Below, piece by piece: positions 6,133 to 16,942 of a DNA stretch of 20,899 nt. Position 1 is the stretch's first letter. Each line of letters opens with the position of its first letter. This DNA is from a virus: positions 28,006 through 48,904 of the IMG/VR virus record IMGVR_UViG_3300030390_001913; one strand, written 5' to 3'. A program made the translations under genes and the position numbers. The notes beneath the pieces are model-generated. The model saw only the letters and a program-made list of their open reading frames with translations, was not told where the DNA came from and did no database searches.

Positions 6133-6942
6133 TTAAATCTTTGAGGGAGGATAGTAACCATGTTCTAAATAAACCATATATTTTTCCTTAAATATTTTAT
6201 ATAAAACGTTAGCTATTTTTGTAATCTTTGGAGTTTTTACATCAACCATTTCTCTTATGTAGATATATAAAGCTTTTTTATTAAATACATCTATATTATC
6301 TCTTTTTCTAAATAATTCTAAAATGGCATCAGCTATTTTAGCATCATTTCCTTTAGGAAATAATTTATATATTCTTTCTGTAACATCATCTACAAATTGA
6401 TCAATAAATACTGATAATTTATCTTCATATTTATAACCTTTTAATGCTAAGTCATCTCCTTCAAATTCTTTTTCTGTTAATATATTCATTCCTTCTTCCA
6501 TTTTTGGAGAAGTAACGAATCCAGGTGATAATTGATCTAAATTTGAATAATTACTTATATCATTAATTTGTATATTTTGAATTTTTTTACCATAATTTTT
6601 AGTATTATATACTATTAACCAACGTTTAACTATAGTTCCAAAATATGAATATGCTTTTGCACCATTATCAGGATTAAAAAGATGAATTTTACTTAAAAGA
6701 AATACCATTAATTCATGTTGTAAATCTTCTAAATTTTCAACTTCTGTATAATAAAATTTAAAGGTATGAATTATATTTTGAGTTAATTTATAAAAAGGCC
6801 AATGAATGTGGTCTTGATAAAGATCACTTCTTTCTTCTTTATCTGTAGAATTATTATATTTTACAATAGCAGCTTCTGTATCTTTTGTAAAGTATACTCT
6901 ACCTTTTCTTATTTTTTTATTTTTCTCAATTATATGGTCCAT
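6133..6942 (-). CDS. 55: T4 gp55-like late sigma factor (predicted)
   Basis: 269 residues. Residues 70-115 (ENLEDLQHELMVFLLSKIHL, FNPDNG, AYSYFGTIVKRWLIVYN) match the sigma-70 region 2 pattern seen in gp55-type factors: an acidic DLxxE helix, an F(D/N)P..G turn and an aromatic Y.Y...I..R promoter-melting helix. Residues 200-255 are helical and may form a helix-turn-helix-like tail (KTPKITKIANVLYKIFKEKY). T4 gp55 is shorter (185 residues) but homologues in marine T4-like phages are often larger. Function by family: it replaces the host sigma factor and directs RNA polymerase with the sliding clamp to late promoters. It is placed just upstream of the structural genes it would be expected to activate. 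Sequence similarity is weak, so this is a motif-based call. Confidence 0.72.
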   Translation of the reverse strand: MDHIIEKNKKIRKGRVYFTKDTEAAIVKYNNSTDKEERSDLYQDHIHWPFYKLTQNIIHTFKFYYTEVENLEDLQHELMVFLLSKIHLFNPDNGAKAYSYFGTIVKRWLIVYNTKNYGKKIQNIQINDISNYSNLDQLSPGFVTSPKMEEGMNILTEKEFEGDDLALKGYKYEDKLSVFIDQFVDDVTERIYKLFPKGNDAKIADAILELFRKRDNIDVFNKKALYIYIREMVDVKTPKITKIANVLYKIFKEKYMVYLEHGYYPPSKI

Positions 6943-10975: not shown

Positions 10976-11311
10976 TTATTTTTTAACTAATAAACTTGGT
11001 GAAACTCTCATCATAGCTCCATTGCTGTTTTTAACTCCAATATTTTTACTATTAATTTTATAAATAGTAAATTCATCATTAGGATTAACTTTTTTATGAT
11101 TAATACCAACTATATCTCCAACATTAAATTCGGCTTTTGTAAAAAGTTTTGTAGGTTCATAACCTGCTTTAGCAGTCATTTTACTTCTTAATTCATTAGA
11201 ATTAAAAGAAATATTACCTAAAGAAATGGTAACACCAAAATCTTTTTCTAATTGCTTAACTGCTTTTGAAAATTCACCTCTAAATTCTTGTACTTTTTGT
11301 TTATTTAACAT
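10976..11311 (-). CDS. Small protein with predicted KOW/SH3-like C-terminal barrel
   Basis: 111 residues. The N-terminal half is helical and charged (QEFRGEFSKAVKQLEKDFGV). The C-terminal half (about 65-111: FNVGDIVGINHKKVNPNDEF, TIYKINSKNIGVKN, MMRVSPSLLVKK) has the alternating beta pattern FxxGDxV..........YxI......V......RVsp..L of small SH3/KOW-like barrels that bind nucleic acid or protein. This is a pattern-based guess. It is the first gene after a promoter repeat (-7 box at 11368-11361) and has the AATAAAGGTTATG start, so it is likely expressed early or in the middle phase. Confidence 0.75.
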   Translation of the reverse strand: MLNKQKVQEFRGEFSKAVKQLEKDFGVTISLGNISFNSNELRSKMTAKAGYEPTKLFTKAEFNVGDIVGINHKKVNPNDEFTIYKINSKNIGVKNSNGAMMRVSPSLLVKK

Positions 11312-11345
11312 AACCTTTATTTTAATTATAAATGCTTGACTTCAT

Positions 11346-11414
11346 GCCTCATTTACCCCGTAAATATACGAAAGCTATTTGGCTTCTCCAAGCATTTTAG
11401 CGGAAGTCTTTAAA
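11346..11414 (-). promoter_or_regulatory. Conserved promoter repeat, copy 1
   Basis: On the minus strand: TTTAAAGACTTCCGC, then TTGG with TTG at 11391-11389, a 20-base spacer ending TTTCG, TATATTTA at 11368-11361, then ACGGGGTAAATGAGGC. The same blocks occur at 13364, 14525, 14907 and 16874 with the same spacing. TTG/TATATTTA fits the Bacteroidota -33/-7 consensus (TTG, TAnnTTTG). It drives the 111-residue gene and the lipoprotein. In this copy the bases after TTGG (AGAAGCCAA) can fold back on it. Confidence 0.8.
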
Positions 11415-11418
11415 AAAT

Positions 11419-11592
11419 CTAGCGATTTTTATATTGAAGTTCTTGTCTTAAATATTCAATTTCACGCTTAGCCTCTGCTATATTCCTATCATCAAGTAAT
11501 TCTTGTATATAAGTAACTTTTTTATACATTTCATCAACTTTAATGTAGTTTTCATTTATATTATTTTCAAGCCTTTCTATTATTCCTTTCAT
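11419..11592 (-). CDS. 57-residue coiled-coil microprotein
   Basis: An open frame from ATG at 11592 to TAG at 11419, below usual length cut-offs. It begins MKGIIERLENNINENY and ends EAKREIEYLRQELQYKNR. Charged residues and regularly spaced Ile/Leu give a strong coiled-coil look over nearly the whole length, and codon use (ATA, GAA, AAA, AGG, TTA) matches neighbours. It fills the space between a putative terminator at 11617-11633 and promoter copy 1, whose outer block begins five bases after its stop. No family recognised; oligomeric regulators or anti-host proteins of this form are common in phages. Confidence 0.7.
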   Translation of the reverse strand: MKGIIERLENNINENYIKVDEMYKKVTYIQELLDDRNIAEAKREIEYLRQELQYKNR

Positions 11593-11616
11593 ATTGTTAG
11601 TTTAAAATTATCTCTC

Positions 11617-11633
11617 AAAAAGGTCTCCCTTCT
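11617..11633 (-). terminator. Candidate intrinsic terminator with GAGA tetraloop
   Basis: On the minus strand AGAAGG-GAGA-CCTTTTT can form a six-base-pair stem (one G-T pair) closed by a GNRA tetraloop and ending in five Ts. It lies 36 bases after the stop of the 124-residue gene. The stem is short, so efficiency is uncertain. The remaining bases of gap 11593-11668 show no gene. Confidence 0.45.
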
Positions 11634-11668
11634 ACATATATTACTACTTACATACGTATATATCAGCA

Positions 11669-12043
11669 TTATGGTGTGAGTTCTAAGCCAATGTTACCAG
11701 TACTTCTCATTTTTGATGTACCAGCATCTACGTCTTCAGTAGGAGTGAATTTATATGAAACAGCAGTAGGTGGAGTTCTTTTACAAACAATTGAAGATTT
11801 ATATGATGATGTAACAAATCCATCAGCGGGAATGTTTGTGAGTGAAGCATATTGACCTAATGCGTTAGTTGGTTTATTAAAGTCATATGATCCAGTAGCG
11901 TTAGGAATAGTTTCCATTACAAAATAACCCGACCCACTTAAATTAGTTGGAATTGCCATAACGAAGGTATATTCTACGCCCGCCGTAAGTAACGGATTGT
12001 CTATTCCTTCTCCTGATAGTTCTGCTCCTGTATATGTTGCCAT
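11669..12043 (-). CDS. Beta-rich small protein, possible virion decoration or fibre component
   Basis: 124 residues (MATYTGAELSGEGIDNPLLT) rich in Thr, Ser, Gly and Pro and poor in Lys/Glu, unlike the charged regulators around it. Predicted mostly beta (VEYTFVMAIPTNLSGSGYFV, AVSYKFTPTEDVDAGTSK). Composition resembles phage capsid-decoration or fibre-attachment proteins, but there is no recognised family. It stands as a single gene: a TATTTATAAC motif lies 11 bases before the ATG and a probable terminator follows, which also suggests separate, perhaps late, expression. Confidence 0.75.
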   Translation of the reverse strand: MATYTGAELSGEGIDNPLLTAGVEYTFVMAIPTNLSGSGYFVMETIPNATGSYDFNKPTNALGQYASLTNIPADGFVTSSYKSSIVCKRTPPTAVSYKFTPTEDVDAGTSKMRSTGNIGLELTP

Positions 12044-12068
12044 GCTGAAATTTTGTTATAAATATATG

Positions 12069-12497
12069 CTAGTTGTGGGTTCCATTTATAATAGCGGAGG
12101 AGCTTAAGCCTTCATAGCGAGGTAAGTAAATAATTTCACCTATATGCTCACTTCCTATAATGGGCTTTTCTCTATAGTCATCACCTATTATCATATATTG
12201 AGGAGAATGCGCTTTAATTAAATTGCGAAGCATATCATCACTATGAAAAGCGTAAACTTCATCAACCCATCTTATCGCGTGGAGGAATTCCATACGGTTT
12301 TTTAGAGTATTAATTGGTCGCGAAGAGCCTTTCTTTTCCTTAATTCTCTCATCCGTATCAACTCCAACTACTATTTTCCAACTGAAGCTCCTAAATTCAT
12401 CACATGCTATCTCATGCGCTTTTTCGAAGAGTTTAATGTGCCCCATATGAAGCACATCAAACGTTCCATTTATCCAAATAACTTCATTACGCTGCAT
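12069..12497 (-). CDS. RfaE/HldE-type (cytidylyltransferase family) sugar-phosphate nucleotidyltransferase
   Basis: 142 residues, the size of a free-standing cytidylyltransferase-fold enzyme. Motif 1 is NGTFDVLHMGHIKLFEKA with His17 and His20 of HxGH, which bind the nucleotide phosphates. GVDTDERIKEKKGSSRPINT holds the sugar-phosphate/nucleotide loop with SRP and a later NRMEFL helix. GDDY at 105-108 and SSSAIING at 132-139 replace the usual GGDY and STT.II motifs. The SRPIN...R pattern is closer to the C-terminal domain of HldE (ADP-heptose synthase) than to TagD. Expected reaction: sugar 1-phosphate plus ATP or CTP to NDP-sugar plus pyrophosphate. The start overlaps the DUF932 gene by 11 bases. 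A heptosyltransferase-like gene is at 19628-20557 in the same window. No kinase domain is fused. Confidence 0.85.
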   Translation of the reverse strand: MQRNEVIWINGTFDVLHMGHIKLFEKAHEIACDEFRSFSWKIVVGVDTDERIKEKKGSSRPINTLKNRMEFLHAIRWVDEVYAFHSDDMLRNLIKAHSPQYMIIGDDYREKPIIGSEHIGEIIYLPRYEGLSSSAIINGTHN

Positions 12498-13317
12498 AAG
12501 ATAATGCTACATTAAATAATTCTTTGTTGATTTTTATATCTTGCTTGAAGTTTTTAATTACGCGAGCTTGTCTAACTTTACCACCTGCTCTATATTGAAA
12601 ATCTCCTTCAATTAATTTTTCCTGAACTACATTAAATACTGACCAAAGATCTGAGCCTCTATCTTCTTTACGTGTGGGAGTTGTTAATTCTTTTAAATCA
12701 ACTTCAATACGATTCATTTCCTTTTTTGTAAATCTCGCATTTAACGCATCTTTAGCAAAGGCAAGTATTTGCTCTTCCGCCATTTCAATTGCTTTCATCT
12801 TATTCATCGACTCTACTGTTAATGGTAATTTCCCAACCATTTCTTTAATCATATCTTGTAGATCTTCAAACGAATAACCCATATGACGCATTTTAACTGA
12901 TTCAAATTGCTCATCTGCAATAACTAAGCCATTTGAGCAAATCATTCTATATAACCCTGCTTGAAATTTAAATGCATTTTTACCATCATGTGAATTCGTC
13001 AACATAATTTGTGGGAAAACTGTATCTCCATCTTCTCCATTAATTACTACATCATCATTTCTAAACACTAGTAAGTGCTTTTGAAATCCTTTTGTATGTT
13101 TAGTTCTTGCTTTTACTTCTTTAGCTTCAATTGGCTTCCAACCTAAAACTTCCATATCATCAATTACACGCTCCGTTGGAATATGTGTATAATGTTTTGA
13201 AACCTCATCTGATGGGCTTTGTGCAAATACTGATGGAGCCATGCTCATAATATTTGCTTTTGTTAAATACTTTGCTGAATTAGCTAACTCTTGTGGGTTT
13301 ACGATTAAATCTGACAT
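12487..13317 (-). CDS. DUF932 family phage/plasmid protein
   Basis: 276 residues. Residues 104-133 (MLTNSHDGKNAFKFQAGLYR followed by MICSNGLVIA) carry the DUF932 hallmark: NSHDG, then a hydrophobic GL(F/Y)R(M/L)(V/I)CSNGL. The family is widespread in phages, plasmids and mobile elements, is often highly expressed early, and has no settled biochemical role; links to anti-host or replication functions are only suggestive. The N-terminus has VIDDMEVLGWKPIEAKEVKA, which is also typical. It is the first gene after promoter repeat copy 2 and has the AATAAAAGTTATG start context. Full length, no missing segments. Confidence 0.88.
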   Translation of the reverse strand: MSDLIVNPQELANSAKYLTKANIMSMAPSVFAQSPSDEVSKHYTHIPTERVIDDMEVLGWKPIEAKEVKARTKHTKGFQKHLLVFRNDDVVINGEDGDTVFPQIMLTNSHDGKNAFKFQAGLYRMICSNGLVIADEQFESVKMRHMGYSFEDLQDMIKEMVGKLPLTVESMNKMKAIEMAEEQILAFAKDALNARFTKKEMNRIEVDLKELTTPTRKEDRGSDLWSVFNVVQEKLIEGDFQYRAGGKVRQARVIKNFKQDIKINKELFNVALSYAA

Positions 13318-13363
13318 AACTTTTATTTATTTAAATTATTAAAACGTGTTCTATTGGCTTCGC

Positions 13364-13432
13364 GCCTCATTTACCCCGTAAATATACGAACCCTCTCTCG
13401 CTTCTCCACGCGATTTACCGGAAGCCTTTAAG
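13364..13432 (-). promoter_or_regulatory. Conserved promoter repeat, copy 2
   Basis: Minus strand: CTTAAAGGCTTCCGG, GTGG in place of TTGG (GTG at 13409-13407), 20 bases ending GGTTCG, TATATTTA at 13386-13379, ACGGGGTAAATGAGGC. It shares the longest downstream identity with copy 5 (GAAGCCAATAGAACAC). It drives the DUF932 gene and the nucleotidyltransferase. Confidence 0.8.
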
Positions 13433-13508
13433 AAATTGTTGCTAATGTAAACACTACAATCATAAGTGTTATATAAATCGCTGAAGATATGTCTATTTTA
13501 CGTTTCAT
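13428..13508 (-). CDS. Possible 26-residue single-pass membrane peptide
   Basis: ATG at 13508 to TAA at 13428. The peptide has a basic N-terminus (MKRKIDISSA) followed by a clean hydrophobic helix (IYITLMIVVFTLATIS). A basic head plus one membrane span is typical of phage-encoded membrane micropeptides. Its stop lies inside the outer block of promoter copy 2. The usual A-rich start context is missing upstream, so expression is uncertain. Confidence 0.4.
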   Translation of the reverse strand: MKRKIDISSAIYITLMIVVFTLATIS

Positions 13509-13574
13509 GGCGATATATATGGGTTTTAAGCCAATAACTGCGGTTACTCATATTACTCTGTGATGAAGTAGCTA

Positions 13575-13820
13575 TTACGTTATATACATATATCTCCTAT
13601 CGATGCCAAAAAATCGTCGTTCGCTACGAGTTGCGCCCTGCGGATTTTTATTGCCATTTTCCCATATGGCCCTTGCATGAATATATTTGTATATATCATC
13701 GATGTTTGAGTTACGTTTGCGAACTATGAAGAGCGCTACACCCTTTATTTGGCATATCCACGCGCGATGGACGGCGGCGCGCCGTGGGTATTTATACCGC
13801 ATATACGCCGTACGCCGCAT
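13575..13820 (-). CDS. Doubtful Arg-rich ORF in structured region, 81 codons
   Basis: The frame runs from ATG at 13820 (MRRTAYMRYKYPRRAAVHRA) to TAA at 13575. The product is unusually rich in Arg and Tyr. The only stretch that looks protein-like is near residues 52-72 (IWENGNKNPQGATRSERRFF). Codon choice and G+C are quite unlike the surrounding phage genes, the usual A-rich start context is absent, and the frame runs straight through a strong hairpin (13754-13791). It may be a chance opening in structured DNA or a recently acquired gene. Confidence 0.3.
   Translation of the reverse strand: MRRTAYMRYKYPRRAAVHRAWICQIKGVALFIVRKRNSNIDDIYKYIHARAIWENGNKNPQGATRSERRFFGIDRRYMYIT
13754..13791. other. 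Strong hairpin in structured region
   Basis: ATATCCACG-CGCG on the left pairs with CGCG-C-CGTGGGTAT on the right: 13 base pairs with one G-T pair and one bulged C, around an 11-base loop. It contains GGCGCGCC. No T-run follows in either direction, so it is not a simple terminator. Confidence 0.65.
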
Positions 13821-13881
13821 GACCTACTATGGTAGTTATTATATATCCAGTACGTAGCACCTAGGTAATATTATATAGTAA

Positions 13882-13920
13882 GGTACCCACCGCGGTAGGT
13901 TATGTCACCGCGGGAGTACC
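13882..13920. other. Strong hairpin in structured region (GGTAC..CCGCGG)
   Basis: GGTACCCACCGCGG and CCGCGGGAGTACC flank a 12-base loop. GGTAC pairs with GTACC and CCGCGG with CCGCGG, separated by a small internal loop; because CCGCGG is itself palindromic, intermolecular or cruciform pairing is also possible. It lies about 50 bases beyond the upstream gene's stop at 13970, so it would be transcribed as part of the 3' region of the cysteine-peptidase-like gene. Confidence 0.65.
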
Positions 13921-13969
13921 AATTACGATCGTCGTCACGACCTTATATTCTATAATTACGTACGGTTAA

Positions 13970-14488
13970 TTACTGTACTTGGTACGCACCCTCTACTATG
14001 CGTCTATACCCACCATACTGATAATTACTATTATCTACCACCACGCCATTCTTAATTGCTAACGCGTGCTTATTCACACCAATAATAAAATTACCCTTAT
14101 TATATTGTTGAGCAAATTCCTTTACCGTAAATGCTACCTTTTTATGCTTATATTTTGGGTTATTTAACTCACCACCAATGTTCTTACCATCCTTAAATTT
14201 AGGAGCGTAACCTAACTGTGTTATTGTTTTGGTTGTGGTTGTATTGAATAAATCTAATTGACCCGCTTGCTCAAATACCATTTCCTCAATGTCATTCATC
14301 GTCTCAAGGAATTTCTGTGTGCCTTGACCCTTTTTACGTTTAAACACATCGCTACAATACTTGTGTGCCTGAGAATAATTCACGTCACATGCATTTGCAA
14401 TGGCTCTCACCGCACAGTCTTTTGTCTCGCTACTAGCTGTTTGATCAGAACCACTAATTGCATACCCATTTTTGAAATTTTTTAACAT
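13970..14488 (-). CDS. Predicted papain-like/C39-like cysteine peptidase fold protein
   Basis: 172 residues. The N-terminal part has ETKDCAVRAIANACDVNYSQ: a Cys (Cys25) at the start of a helix, in the DC.(V/I)RA(I/L)A.A......A pattern known from a phage family with a papain-like fold. The second half has NFIIGVNKHALAIKNGVVVD with His141 before a beta hairpin and Asp152 (or Asn153) after it, matching the G.(Y/F)I..V..H..A...G...D pattern. Cys25, His141 and Asp152 would form the triad. Family knowledge says such proteins are peptidase- or transglutaminase-like; substrates are unknown. Host-protein cleavage or deamidation is plausible, but activity is not shown. It has the AATAAAGGTTATG start and its own promoter repeat (copy 3). 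Downstream lies the structured region. Confidence 0.65.
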   Translation of the reverse strand: MLKNFKNGYAISGSDQTASSETKDCAVRAIANACDVNYSQAHKYCSDVFKRKKGQGTQKFLETMNDIEEMVFEQAGQLDLFNTTTTKTITQLGYAPKFKDGKNIGGELNNPKYKHKKVAFTVKEFAQQYNKGNFIIGVNKHALAIKNGVVVDNSNYQYGGYRRIVEGAYQVQ

Positions 14489-14524
14489 AACCTTTATTTT
14501 TTTAAATTAATACTATCGTTAATG

Positions 14525-14598
14525 GCCTCAACTCATTAACACCGTGAATATACGAACAATTCTTGCGGTAGCCAAGCCTTTCCGCATATGTCTTTAAA
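14525..14598 (-). promoter_or_regulatory. Conserved promoter repeat, copy 3 (most diverged)
   Basis: Minus strand: TTTAAAGACATATGCGG, TTGG with TTG at 14575-14573, 20 bases ending TTGTTCG, TATATTCA at 14552-14545, ACGGTG and then TTAATGAG. The outer TTTAAA overlaps the stop codon of the upstream 92-residue gene. It drives the cysteine-peptidase-like gene. Confidence 0.75.
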
Positions 14599-14872
14599 AC
14601 GTTGCCGGATGACCTTTAAATGCTAATTGCTCTGCCTTGCTAGCATTCATATATTTGATACGTTGCTTGAAGAACATTAGAAATAATGTAGCGTCGGTGA
14701 AGAATCTATCGATGCGTTCGACGTGTGATGATTTACCATATTGAGGGCAATCATAGCTGCCGACTAACATCTTATCATTATTATCAGGATCGTTGGCGAT
14801 CGTGATTGTAACTCCAGGTACCATTTGCTCAACTGCCTTTTGTGTTGTTTTAACTAATTCTAAATAATTCAT
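14594..14872 (-). CDS. Hypothetical phage protein, 92 residues
   Basis: Start placed at the ATG at 14872 (MNYLELVKTTQKAVEQMVPG) because AATAAAGGTTATG precedes it and because an upstream in-frame start at 15010 would run through the promoter repeat. The protein has a beta-like TITIANDPDNNDKMLVGSYD segment and a C-terminal helical half (ERIDRFFTDATLFLMFFKQR then IKYMNASKAEQLAF). No family recognised. Single gene between promoter copies 4 and 3, so probably made as its own short transcript with read-through to the next. Confidence 0.75.
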   Translation of the reverse strand: MNYLELVKTTQKAVEQMVPGVTITIANDPDNNDKMLVGSYDCPQYGKSSHVERIDRFFTDATLFLMFFKQRIKYMNASKAEQLAFKGHPATF

Positions 14873-14906
14873 AACCTTTATTGTTTTTATTAATACTTGC
14901 GTTCCC

Positions 14907-14970
14907 GCCTCATTTACCCCGTAAATATACGAACAATCACTCGCTTCTCCACATATCTCCGCGGGAGTCG
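14907..14970 (-). promoter_or_regulatory. Conserved promoter repeat, copy 4
   Basis: Minus strand: GACTCCCGCGG, GTGG (GTG at 14952-14950), 20 bases ending TTGTTCG, TATATTTA at 14929-14922, ACGGGGTAAATGAGGC. Unlike the other copies, the outer TTTAAA block is replaced by repeats of GTTCACAA (14971-15012). It drives the 92-residue gene. Confidence 0.8.
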
Positions 14971-15012
14971 TTGTGAACGTTTGTGAACATGCGTAGCTCC
15001 GTGTGTTCACAA
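14971..15012. promoter_or_regulatory. Three TTGTGAAC boxes upstream of promoter copy 4, possible operator
   Basis: TTGTGAAC occurs at 14971-14978 and 14981-14988, spaced ten bases (one helical turn), and inverted as GTTCACAA at 15005-15012. Located directly upstream of the -33 element on the minus strand, at about -55 to -95, this fits an activator site or an upstream operator. No regulator in the window can be linked to it. Confidence 0.5.
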
Positions 15013-15106
15013 GTATATACTCGTTACCTATAGTAAGGGTTGGATGCGCGGGCCAAAGGGGTTAATACATAATGTGTTTTATATCACATTCCCATATACA
15101 CGTTTA

Positions 15107-15268
15107 TCACATACTATCGATGTGTTTCTTCCACGTGTCATACTTGGCCATTTGTTTGTCATACTTACGTTTGGATATGCGCTTACCACGCTCCTCAAAC
15201 CAACACCATACGAATGTAAAGGCAAATATGCCAATTACACCTAAAATACCCGCTACGGCTTCACTCAT
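15107..15268 (-). CDS. 53-residue single-pass membrane protein
   Basis: ATG at 15268 to TGA at 15107. The N-terminus is a membrane helix (EAVAGILGVIGIFAFTFVWC, about 3-22) followed by WFEERGKRISKRKYDK and a basic soluble tail ending KKHIDSM. The positive charge after the helix predicts a cytoplasmic C-terminus. It is preceded by AATTATTAAGGTATG, similar to neighbouring starts. Last gene of the run beginning at 16835. A plus-strand frame across the same bases has no gene-like composition. Role unknown; small membrane proteins of this kind may affect lysis timing or membrane defence. Confidence 0.65.
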   Translation of the reverse strand: MSEAVAGILGVIGIFAFTFVWCWFEERGKRISKRKYDKQMAKYDTWKKHIDSM

Positions 15269-15284
15269 ACCTTAATAATTTTTA

Positions 15285-15593
15285 TTAATATTCATTTGCA
15301 TCGTTAATTTCCCCACCGCGACGACTATCTCTACCGTCACTGAAACTATCATAATCATCATTATCCCCATCTACCCAATTATAAGATTGAGTGGAAAGTA
15401 AACCAGAGTAATTACATGTTACACTTTCATACACACCCATTTTATCATCAAACTCTTCATTAGTCATTCCTTTCATAAACATGACCATTTTAAAATCTAA
15501 ATTCATTAATCTATACTTTGTAGAGTAATTGGCAATAAATTCTTTGTGATGACTATTGAATTCATCTTGTGTAAATTTAGAATGGTAACTCAT
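15285..15593 (-). CDS. Hypothetical protein with acidic tail, 102 residues
   Basis: Start placed at the ATG at 15593 (MSYHSKFTQDEFNSHHKEFI); an in-frame ATG at 15650 lies deep inside the preceding gene and adds residues with no protein-like features. The body is helical and aromatic-rich, with Met-rich FKMVMFMKGMTNEEFDDKMG. The tail (VDGDNDDYDSFSDGRDSRRGG) is Asp/Ser-rich and probably disordered, a feature seen in DNA-mimic or protein-binding phage proteins, though not proof of such a role. The start overlaps the preceding gene by 17 bases. Confidence 0.7.
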   Translation of the reverse strand: MSYHSKFTQDEFNSHHKEFIANYSTKYRLMNLDFKMVMFMKGMTNEEFDDKMGVYESVTCNYSGLLSTQSYNWVDGDNDDYDSFSDGRDSRRGGEINDANEY

Positions 15594-15834
15594 CGTCAGT
15601 ATCTTGTTCAACGTAAATTTCACCTTCCTGTTTATTATCAAAATATGCATCTAAATACCATTTTGGATATGTTAATACTTTACCTTTATAATAAGGTGTA
15701 TCAACTTCTTTAGAATCAACTTTAACAAATTCCTTTGTTTTCTTAACTGCCTCAAATACTTCCTTACCTAAATCAGCACCAGCAGCACGACCTAAATAAT
15801 CATATAAAGACATATATGTGTTATCTTTTTCCAT
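15577..15834 (-). CDS. Hypothetical protein, 85 residues
   Basis: 85 residues (MEKDNTYMSLYDYLGRAAGA), acidic C-terminus (GEIYVEQDTDDELPF). The first 35 residues are helical with a Gly/Ala patch (AAGADLGKEVFEAVKKT). The KGKVLTYPKWYLDAYF segment looks beta-like. The DDELPF C-terminus resembles the acidic DDE(L/I)PF tails of single-stranded DNA-binding proteins, which recruit partners. That likeness, if not chance, would point to replication or repair. No other motif. The start overlaps the 34-residue gene by 14 bases and the stop overlaps the next gene by 17. Confidence 0.7.
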   Translation of the reverse strand: MEKDNTYMSLYDYLGRAAGADLGKEVFEAVKKTKEFVKVDSKEVDTPYYKGKVLTYPKWYLDAYFDNKQEGEIYVEQDTDDELPF

Positions 15835-15925
15835 TCCTATTATTTTTAACTGTTTTTTTACTTTTTAATGTTGGTAACCATTGTTTTAATTGTTCATACA
15901 ATGACTTATGACTATTTTTGCTCAT
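15821..15925 (-). CDS. 34-residue basic microprotein
   Basis: ATG at 15925 to TAA at 15821, overlapping the start of the 85-residue gene by 14 bases. The sequence begins MSKNSHKSLYEQLKQWLPTL and ends in a very basic tail (KSKKTVKNNRNGKR). The overlap and tight packing with both neighbours support it as a real gene. Function unknown; a nucleic-acid-binding peptide is possible. Confidence 0.55.
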   Translation of the reverse strand: MSKNSHKSLYEQLKQWLPTLKSKKTVKNNRNGKR

Positions 15926-15926
15926 A

Positions 15927-16040
15927 TTATTTGCTTTTGCATTTTATATTATCTTCTCTTGTTAAATCTGAATTTCTTAATCCACATTTAGTACACTCTA
16001 CAGTACCATCTTTGTCTATTTTTATATAATTGTGATTCAT
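15927..16040 (-). CDS. 37-residue zinc-ribbon-like microprotein
   Basis: ATG at 16040 to TAA at 15927, then one base to the next ATG. The peptide (MNHNYIKIDKDGTVECTKCG and onward) has Cys16-x2-Cys19 on a knuckle-like turn (VECTKCGLRN) and a third Cys near residue 34, giving half of a zinc ribbon. A full site would need a fourth ligand such as His3 or dimerisation. Fits neatly between the 80-residue and 34-residue genes. Confidence 0.6.
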   Translation of the reverse strand: MNHNYIKIDKDGTVECTKCGLRNSDLTREDNIKCKSK

Positions 16041-16057
16041 ATTAACTGTATTTTTAT

Positions 16058-16300
16058 TTAATATTTAACTTTACCTTTAATTCCTGCTTTTAATGCTTTA
16101 AGTACATCACTATGATGATATAAAAAATCATCACCTACAACTGTACAATCTACAAACTGTAATACTTCATCAAATGTAACAGTATTAATATCCGGAAAAT
16201 TTTTCAACATATGATCCACTTCAGGAATTGTAAAACCGTGCTCATTACTTGTTTCAAAATTAGCTATTAAGCTATCTAAACTTCCACTATAATTACCCAT
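16058..16300 (-). CDS. Hypothetical acidic protein, 80 residues
   Basis: 80 residues (MGNYSGSLDSLIANFETSNE), acidic and mixed alpha/beta, with a TIPEVDHMLKNFPDINTVTF segment and VDCTVVGDDFLYHHSDVLKA followed by a Lys/Gly-rich end. No domain recognised. Two bases downstream of the 112-residue gene; part of the operon from promoter copy 5. Confidence 0.7.
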   Translation of the reverse strand: MGNYSGSLDSLIANFETSNEHGFTIPEVDHMLKNFPDINTVTFDEVLQFVDCTVVGDDFLYHHSDVLKALKAGIKGKVKY

Positions 16301-16302
16301 AT

Positions 16303-16641
16303 CTACAAATTTAATGCTTTACATTTTAATATAATTTCATCTGCTGATTTAGCTGACTGAACAATAACCATTACTTTAGCTACTTGATCTGTATTCAACC
16401 AACCACAAACCATATCCAAGCCATCATTAAGAGGAATAATTGGGGTATCTTTAATATTATCATTAAACACAGCAATTTCAGCTGATGTAGATTCCCAAAA
16501 TTTACCTTTCATTTCATCACCAAACATACCATCACTTTTCTTTTGACAGTAGTTACCTATTCCCCATTGAACAGATAACGTAAAACCATTATCAAAGGTC
16601 ATTTGAAAACCTTTATTATGTGTACTATTAAACTTACTCAT
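16303..16641 (-). CDS. Hypothetical phage protein, 112 residues
   Basis: 112 residues. An N-terminal beta region (GFQMTFDNGFTLSVQWGIGN) with NYCQKKSDGM leads into an ESTSAEIAVFN strand, then a helical C-terminal half (DQVAKVMVIVQSAKSADEII). The TFDNG(F/Y)T.S.Q.G.GNYC...E.A....... pattern looks familiar from small proteins encoded by phages of diverse hosts, but I cannot attach a function. Second gene after promoter copy 5, five bases after the 62-residue gene; its start has GAGTTATG, a variant of the common context. Confidence 0.75.
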   Translation of the reverse strand: MSKFNSTHNKGFQMTFDNGFTLSVQWGIGNYCQKKSDGMFGDEMKGKFWESTSAEIAVFNDNIKDTPIIPLNDGLDMVCGWLNTDQVAKVMVIVQSAKSADEIILKCKALNL

Positions 16642-16646
16642 AACTC

Positions 16647-16835
16647 TTAAGAATTTGTTCTTGAAAATTTCCCATTATATTGATACATTTTTCCTAATAC
16701 AGGATGTACAATATTATTACCATACTCAACAAGATCTATTAACATTTTAGACATTGCTTGTACTTTTAATGCAGTAACAAATACTACACCATTAATCACT
16801 TTTGAATTTGTTGGATTTAAATTTACTTTTTTCAT
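16647..16835 (-). CDS. Small hypothetical protein, 62 residues
   Basis: 62 residues (MKKVNLNPTNSKVINGVVFV), with two beta-like segments and a central helix (LKVQAMSKMLIDLVEYGN). No family recognised. It is the first gene after promoter repeat copy 5 and has the exact AATAAAGGTTATG start, so it heads an early-type run of small genes: 62, 112, 80, 37, 34, 85, 102 and 53 residues. Confidence 0.7.
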   Translation of the reverse strand: MKKVNLNPTNSKVINGVVFVTALKVQAMSKMLIDLVEYGNNIVHPVLGKMYQYNGKFSRTNS

Positions 16836-16873
16836 AACCTTTATTTATTTTACTTGTGTTCTATTGGCTTCAT

Positions 16874-16942
16874 GCCTCATTTACCCCGTAAATATACGAA
16901 CCCTCTTTCGGGTATCCAAGTTTTTTCGCGGAAGTCTTTAAA
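16874..16942 (-). promoter_or_regulatory. Conserved promoter repeat, copy 5
   Basis: Minus strand: TTTAAAGACTTCCGCG, TTGG with TTG at 16919-16917, 20 bases ending GGTTCG, TATATTTA at 16896-16889, ACGGGGTAAATGAGGC. The TTTAAA block overlaps the stop codon of the upstream membrane-protein gene. ACCC and GGGT in the spacer could pair. It heads an eight-gene run of small proteins. Confidence 0.8.

Follow-up and report, generated by a model that had tools for sequence, protein, structure and literature searches.

In Flavobacterium johnsoniae, the promoter -7 motif is TANNTTTG, transcription starts 4-5 nt after the -7 box, and Flavobacterium is without Shine-Dalgarno sequences (PMC6847099). The -7 box of this species ends in a nearly invariant G, and its -33 motif is hardly evident (PMC6847099). 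The early promoters of phage T4 are strengthened ones, with a consensus extending beyond the host elements and with A-rich upstream sequence (PMC2988021). Little was found on the ways in which lytic Bacteroidota phages commandeer the unusual sigma-A of their hosts. In the MotA promoters of T4, the MotA box replaces the -35 element. The element described here is repeated five times in a 20,899-nt stretch of viral DNA (the window), which belongs to a virus record of 48,904 bases. Judged from sequence comparison, it is probably a compact intergenic promoter module in a T4-related phage infecting Flavobacterium-like hosts, most likely read by host sigma-A and combined with a hairpin and a leader stem-loop. 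The virus was regarded as a T4-related contractile phage because gp6-like and gp25-like baseplate genes were present.

All five module copies were found on the minus strand of the window (Table 1), as the initial annotation had claimed. The 26-mer TTCGTATATTTACGGGGTAAATGAGG was identical in four of them (11347-11372, 13365-13390, 14908-14933, and 16875-16900), and 100 shuffles produced zero matches at ≤3 mismatches. The order [TG]TGG, 19 nt, TATATT[TC]A was common to the five copies, and the 20-nt distance from TTG to the -7 box, which had been called invariant, was identical in all of them. The proposed location just before gene starts was also observed, with an ATG approximately 45-57 nt 3' of the predicted +1 in each copy. 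Other parts of the description held for some copies only. The -33 block was TTGG in copies 1, 3, and 5, but GTGG in copies 2 and 4, and the conserved outer block (TTTAAAGACTTCCGC) was exact only in copies 1 and 5, overlapping the stop codon of the upstream gene in copy 5 (16938-16940); the other three carried the variants CTTAAAGGCTTCCGG, TTTAAAGACATATGC, and CACAACGACTCCCGC. Copy 3 (-33 TTGG at 14575), which had been described as reduced, did have three mismatches to the 26-mer in its core (TATATTCACGGTGTTAATGAG), but its leader contained a different stem (GTTAATG...CATTAAC), so it was not merely reduced.

Table 1. Module copies in the window, with predicted transcription starts (+1) and putative stem-loops
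Feature	Position	Strand	Elements
Copy 1, outer block to predicted +1 (~11356)	11356..11414	-	TTGG 11391-11388; TATATTTA 11368-11361; spacer hairpin ~11393-11382
Copy 1, leader	11312..11356	-	stem-loop GGC-ATGAA-GTC 11348-11338, closed by GTAAATG/CATTTAT; ATG of 111-aa gene at 11311
Copy 2, outer block to predicted +1 (~13374)	13374..13432	-	GTGG 13409-13406; TATATTTA 13386-13379
Copy 2, leader	13318..13374	-	GGC-GCGAA-GCC 13366-13356; ATG of DUF932 gene at 13317
Copy 3, outer block to predicted +1 (~14540)	14540..14598	-	TTGG 14575-14572; TATATTCA 14552-14545
Copy 3, leader	14489..14540	-	alternative stem GTTAATG/CATTAAC 14540-14518; ATG of 172-aa gene at 14488
Copy 4, outer block to predicted +1 (~14917)	14917..14975	-	GTGG 14952-14949; TATATTTA 14929-14922
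Copy 4, leader	14873..14917	-	GCG-GGAA-CGC 14908-14899; ATG of 92-aa gene at 14872
Copy 5, outer block to predicted +1 (~16884)	16884..16942	-	TTGG 16919-16916; TATATTTA 16896-16889; spacer hairpin ACCC...GGGT
Copy 5, leader	16836..16884	-	GGC-ATGAA-GCC 16876-16866; ATG of 62-aa gene at 16835

Just 5' of copy 4, an imperfect inverted repeat (TTGTGAACATGCGTAG/CTCCGTGTGTTCACAA) and a repeated GTTCACAA were identified (14981-15012), and similar GTTCAC repeats were located upstream of the matching copies in two other stretches (L015 and L019). A region of about 550 bp (13420-13970) lacked a convincing ORF and was rich in palindromes (CCGCGG, GGCGCGCC), with a G+C content of up to 47% vs. ~30% in its surroundings. 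No Rfam match was obtained for this region, and the Rfam search for known RNA families returned tRNAs only.

An ungapped alignment of 70 non-redundant copies, numbered so that position 0 is the first T in TTCG, yielded the consensus [TG]TGG-N15-TTCG-TATATTTA, with [TG]TGG at -19 to -16, TTCG at 0-3, TATATTTA at 4-11, and RTAAATGAGG from position 16. The -33 box was TTGG in 52 copies and GTGG in 18, always at the same distance. The Bacteroidota -33/-7 core proposed in the initial annotation was supported. TTG was present at -33, and seven of the eight positions of the -7 box TATATTTA fitted TAnnTTTG, the last one being A where G is usual. With the start placed 4 nt past the -7 box by analogy with F. 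johnsoniae (PMC6847099), the predicted +1 (position 16) was a purine in 69 of the 70 copies. Because the loci were chosen by this core, its own conservation is partly due to that choice, and only the non-core columns are independent evidence. Such columns, located upstream (A at -38/-37 and GC at -29/-28) and in the leader, bore out the earlier claim that conservation exceeds a minimal promoter. Relative to the predicted start, A-rich stretches would occupy roughly -55 to -51 and -41 to -37, in the promoter-upstream zone of UP elements. The TTTAA part often coincided with the stop codon of the upstream gene. The median distance from this stop codon to TTCG was 37 nt, and that from the predicted +1 to the next ATG, usually preceded by A-rich AATAAAGGTTATG, was 46 nt. 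Copies inside genes without positional preference were not seen, and for 65 of the 70 no ORF of ≥60 aa covered the module. In addition, positions 12 and 16 (approximately -4 and +1) covaried as C/G or T/A (z 6.5), giving the dyad TTTAY-NNN-RTAAA across the predicted start, which is perhaps an operator or a lineage effect.

A search of related phages, suggested together with the initial annotation, detected an exact 23-mer of the module in 48 IMG/VR stretches, and the copies of any one contig were all on one strand. A reversed control pattern gave 0 hits in 20 contigs. Eight near-exact copies were found in each of three relatives of ~164 kb (G001-G003), and a looser search of G001 returned ~15 modules, mostly at 70-93 kb. 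In the sample, modules preceded 26 gene families, mostly encoding small proteins of unknown function. The exact sequence had no real match among the cultured phages of INPHARED. An exact 21-mer was not found in the GTDB species genomes, and a host origin of the element was rejected on this result.

The closest cultured relative found, via baseplate and DUF932 proteins (~44% identical), was Flavobacterium phage immuto (NC_055915.1; 160-kb genome), which infects Flavobacterium sp. LMO8. Its genome contained 25 modules, identified through a leader of its own (GGTATCAATAATTAAAA), and the immuto leader sequence was present in 36 IMG/VR stretches. In all 25 modules, TTG was located exactly 23 nt before TATATTTA, i.e., with 20 nt between, and TTC preceded the -7 box in most of them. 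As in the window phage, TTG-N20-TATATTTA was combined with TTC before the -7 box and with a hairpin including the -33 TTG, and the modules stood upstream of individual small genes in the neighbourhood of the DUF932 gene. In contrast to the window phage, the leader (GGTATCAATAATTAAAACA) was unstructured and without a stem-loop, the AAAGACTTCCGC block was absent, and the U-runs were better. Since the modules of immuto share the core and differ in the leader, core and architecture are common to two phage groups, and the leader is group-specific. Within the open-access literature, which provides a weak negative, neither a description of the immuto repeated module or promoters nor anything relevant on terminators overlapping promoters in phages was found; a paper on Baltic Sea Flavobacterium phages mentioned neither immuto nor promoters.

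The extra conservation appears to comprise two RNA parts, namely a spacer hairpin and a leader stem-loop of the GGC-GNRA-GCC type. Single-register covariation of the spacer over the 70 copies gave no consensus helix because the stem registers differ between copies. An arm-swap test was therefore used instead, in which left and right arms were exchanged between copies (400 swaps), keeping column composition and breaking pairing. Real copies were more stable than all 400 swaps both in the spacer (-30..+2; z -6.5, -5.3, and -4.0) and in the leader (+13..+45; z -7.7, -5.4, and -4.7), the values being listed by decreasing redundancy and the last spacer set consisting of 15 sequences. A downstream control region showed no effect (z near 0), and a control at -50..0, which overlaps the spacer, showed a small one. 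The spacer hairpins of immuto were likewise more stable than all arm swaps. Spacer hairpins of ≤-8 kcal/mol occurred in 20 of the 70 copies vs. 6.7 expected. In three examples, L011 (GAGGGGATTTGGC-TTA-GCCAGATCCCCTT), L014, and L065, the -33 TTGG was contained in or at the stem. Real U-runs followed the hairpins of L014 (GTATCC-ATTT-GGATAC..CCGGTTTTTTTTT) and L065 (GGCTTGG-ATTT-CCAAGCTTTTTTT), and most marine copies had a poor one (UUCGUAUAUUU). The five spacer hairpins of the window were weak (-3.4 to -8.6 kcal/mol), and 0/5 passed the terminator scan. In a 16-kb region of immuto (60-76 kb), the scan detected 19 sites vs. 5.0 expected, several of which coincided with modules. Terminator features, i.e., a G+C-rich hairpin plus a U-run, were clear in immuto, L014, and L065; the 20 strong stems among the 70 copies mostly had poor U-runs. 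Leader stems were GGC/GCC, GGT/GCC, GGGT/ACCC, or GCG/CGC around GNRA-type loops. Conservation of the leader stem-loop started near the predicted first base of the transcript, and the stem-loop was specific to the lineage of the window phage.

The sequences themselves establish the anatomy, spacing, position, and orientation of the module, the re-pairing evidence for both hairpins, and the equivalent in immuto. In the proposed mechanism, the upstream end would consist of A-rich, UP-like sequence together with the preceding gene's stop codon or 3' UTR. The spacer, as RNA read from upstream, would fold in many copies into the hairpin containing the -33 TTGG, and the stronger hairpins would be intrinsic terminators for the upstream gene, so that the hairpin may end or protect the upstream transcript. 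Transcription would be directed by the host sigma-A core (TTG-N20-TATATTTA, the -7 box being directly preceded by TTC) from a purine ~4 nt past this box, giving a leader of ~45 nt, comprising the RTAAATGAGG start, a short GNRA-type stem-loop, and the A-rich start context AATAAAGGTTATG. The leader stem may stabilise the new mRNA or keep it open for initiation. Many small genes would in this way become separate strong units read by host RNA polymerase, as with the strengthened early promoters of T4. An early class is suggested because small genes of unknown function lie downstream. This reading predicts early timing, host sigma-A use, the start site, termination, and an effect of the leader on stability or translation. 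Far more tentatively, the leader stem-loop could be the site of a phage RNA-binding regulator or an mRNA-stabilising 5' structure, co-controlling the small genes post-transcriptionally while the fused hairpin insulates each gene, although we consider this doubtful. Points against the main reading are the final A of the -7 box, where F. johnsoniae has the nearly invariant G, the sigma-like protein encoded by these phages, the weak window hairpins, none passing the scan, and the poor U-runs of most marine copies.

The sigma-like protein (269 aa), encoded on the minus strand of the window (6133-6942), matched Sigma70_r2 below the threshold and had 95 relatives in IMG/VR. Sigma factors headed the list in a fold search, all of them weak matches (E above 0.001, low-confidence model). 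A profile search against PDB sequences returned nothing, and no Sigma70_r4 match was obtained in the six records tested, which favours reading of the module by the host sigma. The immuto homologue (78174-78872; 40% identity) is annotated as hypothetical. The product is a candidate divergent sigma-like protein, possibly a late sigma factor. In immuto (L081-L084), TATTTATAA without a -33 box was located shortly before the ATG of the sheath, tube, portal, gp036, gp044, and gp077 genes, and it is a possible late promoter of structural genes. As a guess, if a gp55-type late sigma served a separate class of promoters, the module would remain with the host sigma.

A phage activator or sigma might instead recognise the outer block AAAGACTTCCGC (approximately -55 to -44) or the start-site dyad TTTAC-NNN-GTAAA, making the modules a middle-type regulon like that of T4 MotA. 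Such a factor would agree with the outer block, which was fairly conserved (AA at -38/-37, GC at -29/-28), constant in its distance, and kept even where it lay inside upstream coding sequence, as well as with A instead of G at -5, the -4/+1 covariation, and the sigma-like gene. We regard it as unlikely: several window copies retained the block poorly, the immuto modules that share the core lacked it, part of it is the upstream stop codon, and the different motif upstream of the immuto structural genes is a better candidate for a phage sigma. Moreover, a strict -33 TTGG/GTGG was present in all 70 copies, unlike in MotA promoters. Given the hairpin, the leader stem-loop, and the A-rich upstream sequence, the data fit a module in which an extra protein factor is not needed for most of the extra conservation.

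It is quite improbable that the module is a promoter only and that the hairpins are by-products of composition, relatedness, or chance. Hairpins were weak or absent in most copies, no single-register consensus helix emerged, and the immuto leader was unstructured, all of which would agree with this reading. However, different stem sequences restored pairing in different copies, no arm swap attained the energy of the real copies, not even when the set was reduced to 15 dissimilar spacers or to 25 leaders, and immuto showed the same upstream tendency with unrelated sequences.

Leader identity was 0.59 between orthologous loci across genomes and 0.45 both between different loci of one genome and between random pairs. 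Because copies at orthologous genes were more alike than same-genome copies, the pattern fits old, mostly vertical inheritance rather than current mobility. The initial annotation had also raised a regulatory cassette that spreads within genomes by mobility or duplication. This is very improbable and was rejected on the identity pattern, in which copies track the downstream gene. Genomes did contain several copies each, and a few 20-nt leader stretches were identical before unrelated genes, but the orientation was always single and no copy family was found inside genes.

The preferred reading, a host sigma-A promoter with two RNA elements, gives an explicit, testable consensus (TTG-N20-TATATTTA, with TTC before the -7 box), and equivalent modules occur in immuto, which is cultured on Flavobacterium sp. 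LMO8. These natural promoters may be of use in Flavobacterium genetics. Where a terminator hairpin partly merges with the -33 box, single small genes would become independent in very little space. Compared with Bacteroidota sigma-A promoters (sigma-ABfr; -33 TTTG / -7 TAnnTTTG), the module shares TTG at -33, TA..TTT at -7, a purine ~4 nt downstream, and a start context that is rich in A and lacks a canonical Shine-Dalgarno arrangement, but it differs in A for G at -5, in the spacing fixed at 20, in the strict -33 box, and in additional upstream, spacer, and leader features. With T4 early promoters it has in common many copies before small genes, A-rich upstream sequence, and extra consensus, whereas the sigma specificity differs. 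To our knowledge, the T4 early consensus includes neither a hairpin sharing the -33 box nor a leader stem-loop. The module is a well-defined variant of ordinary phage promoters and no new kind of system.
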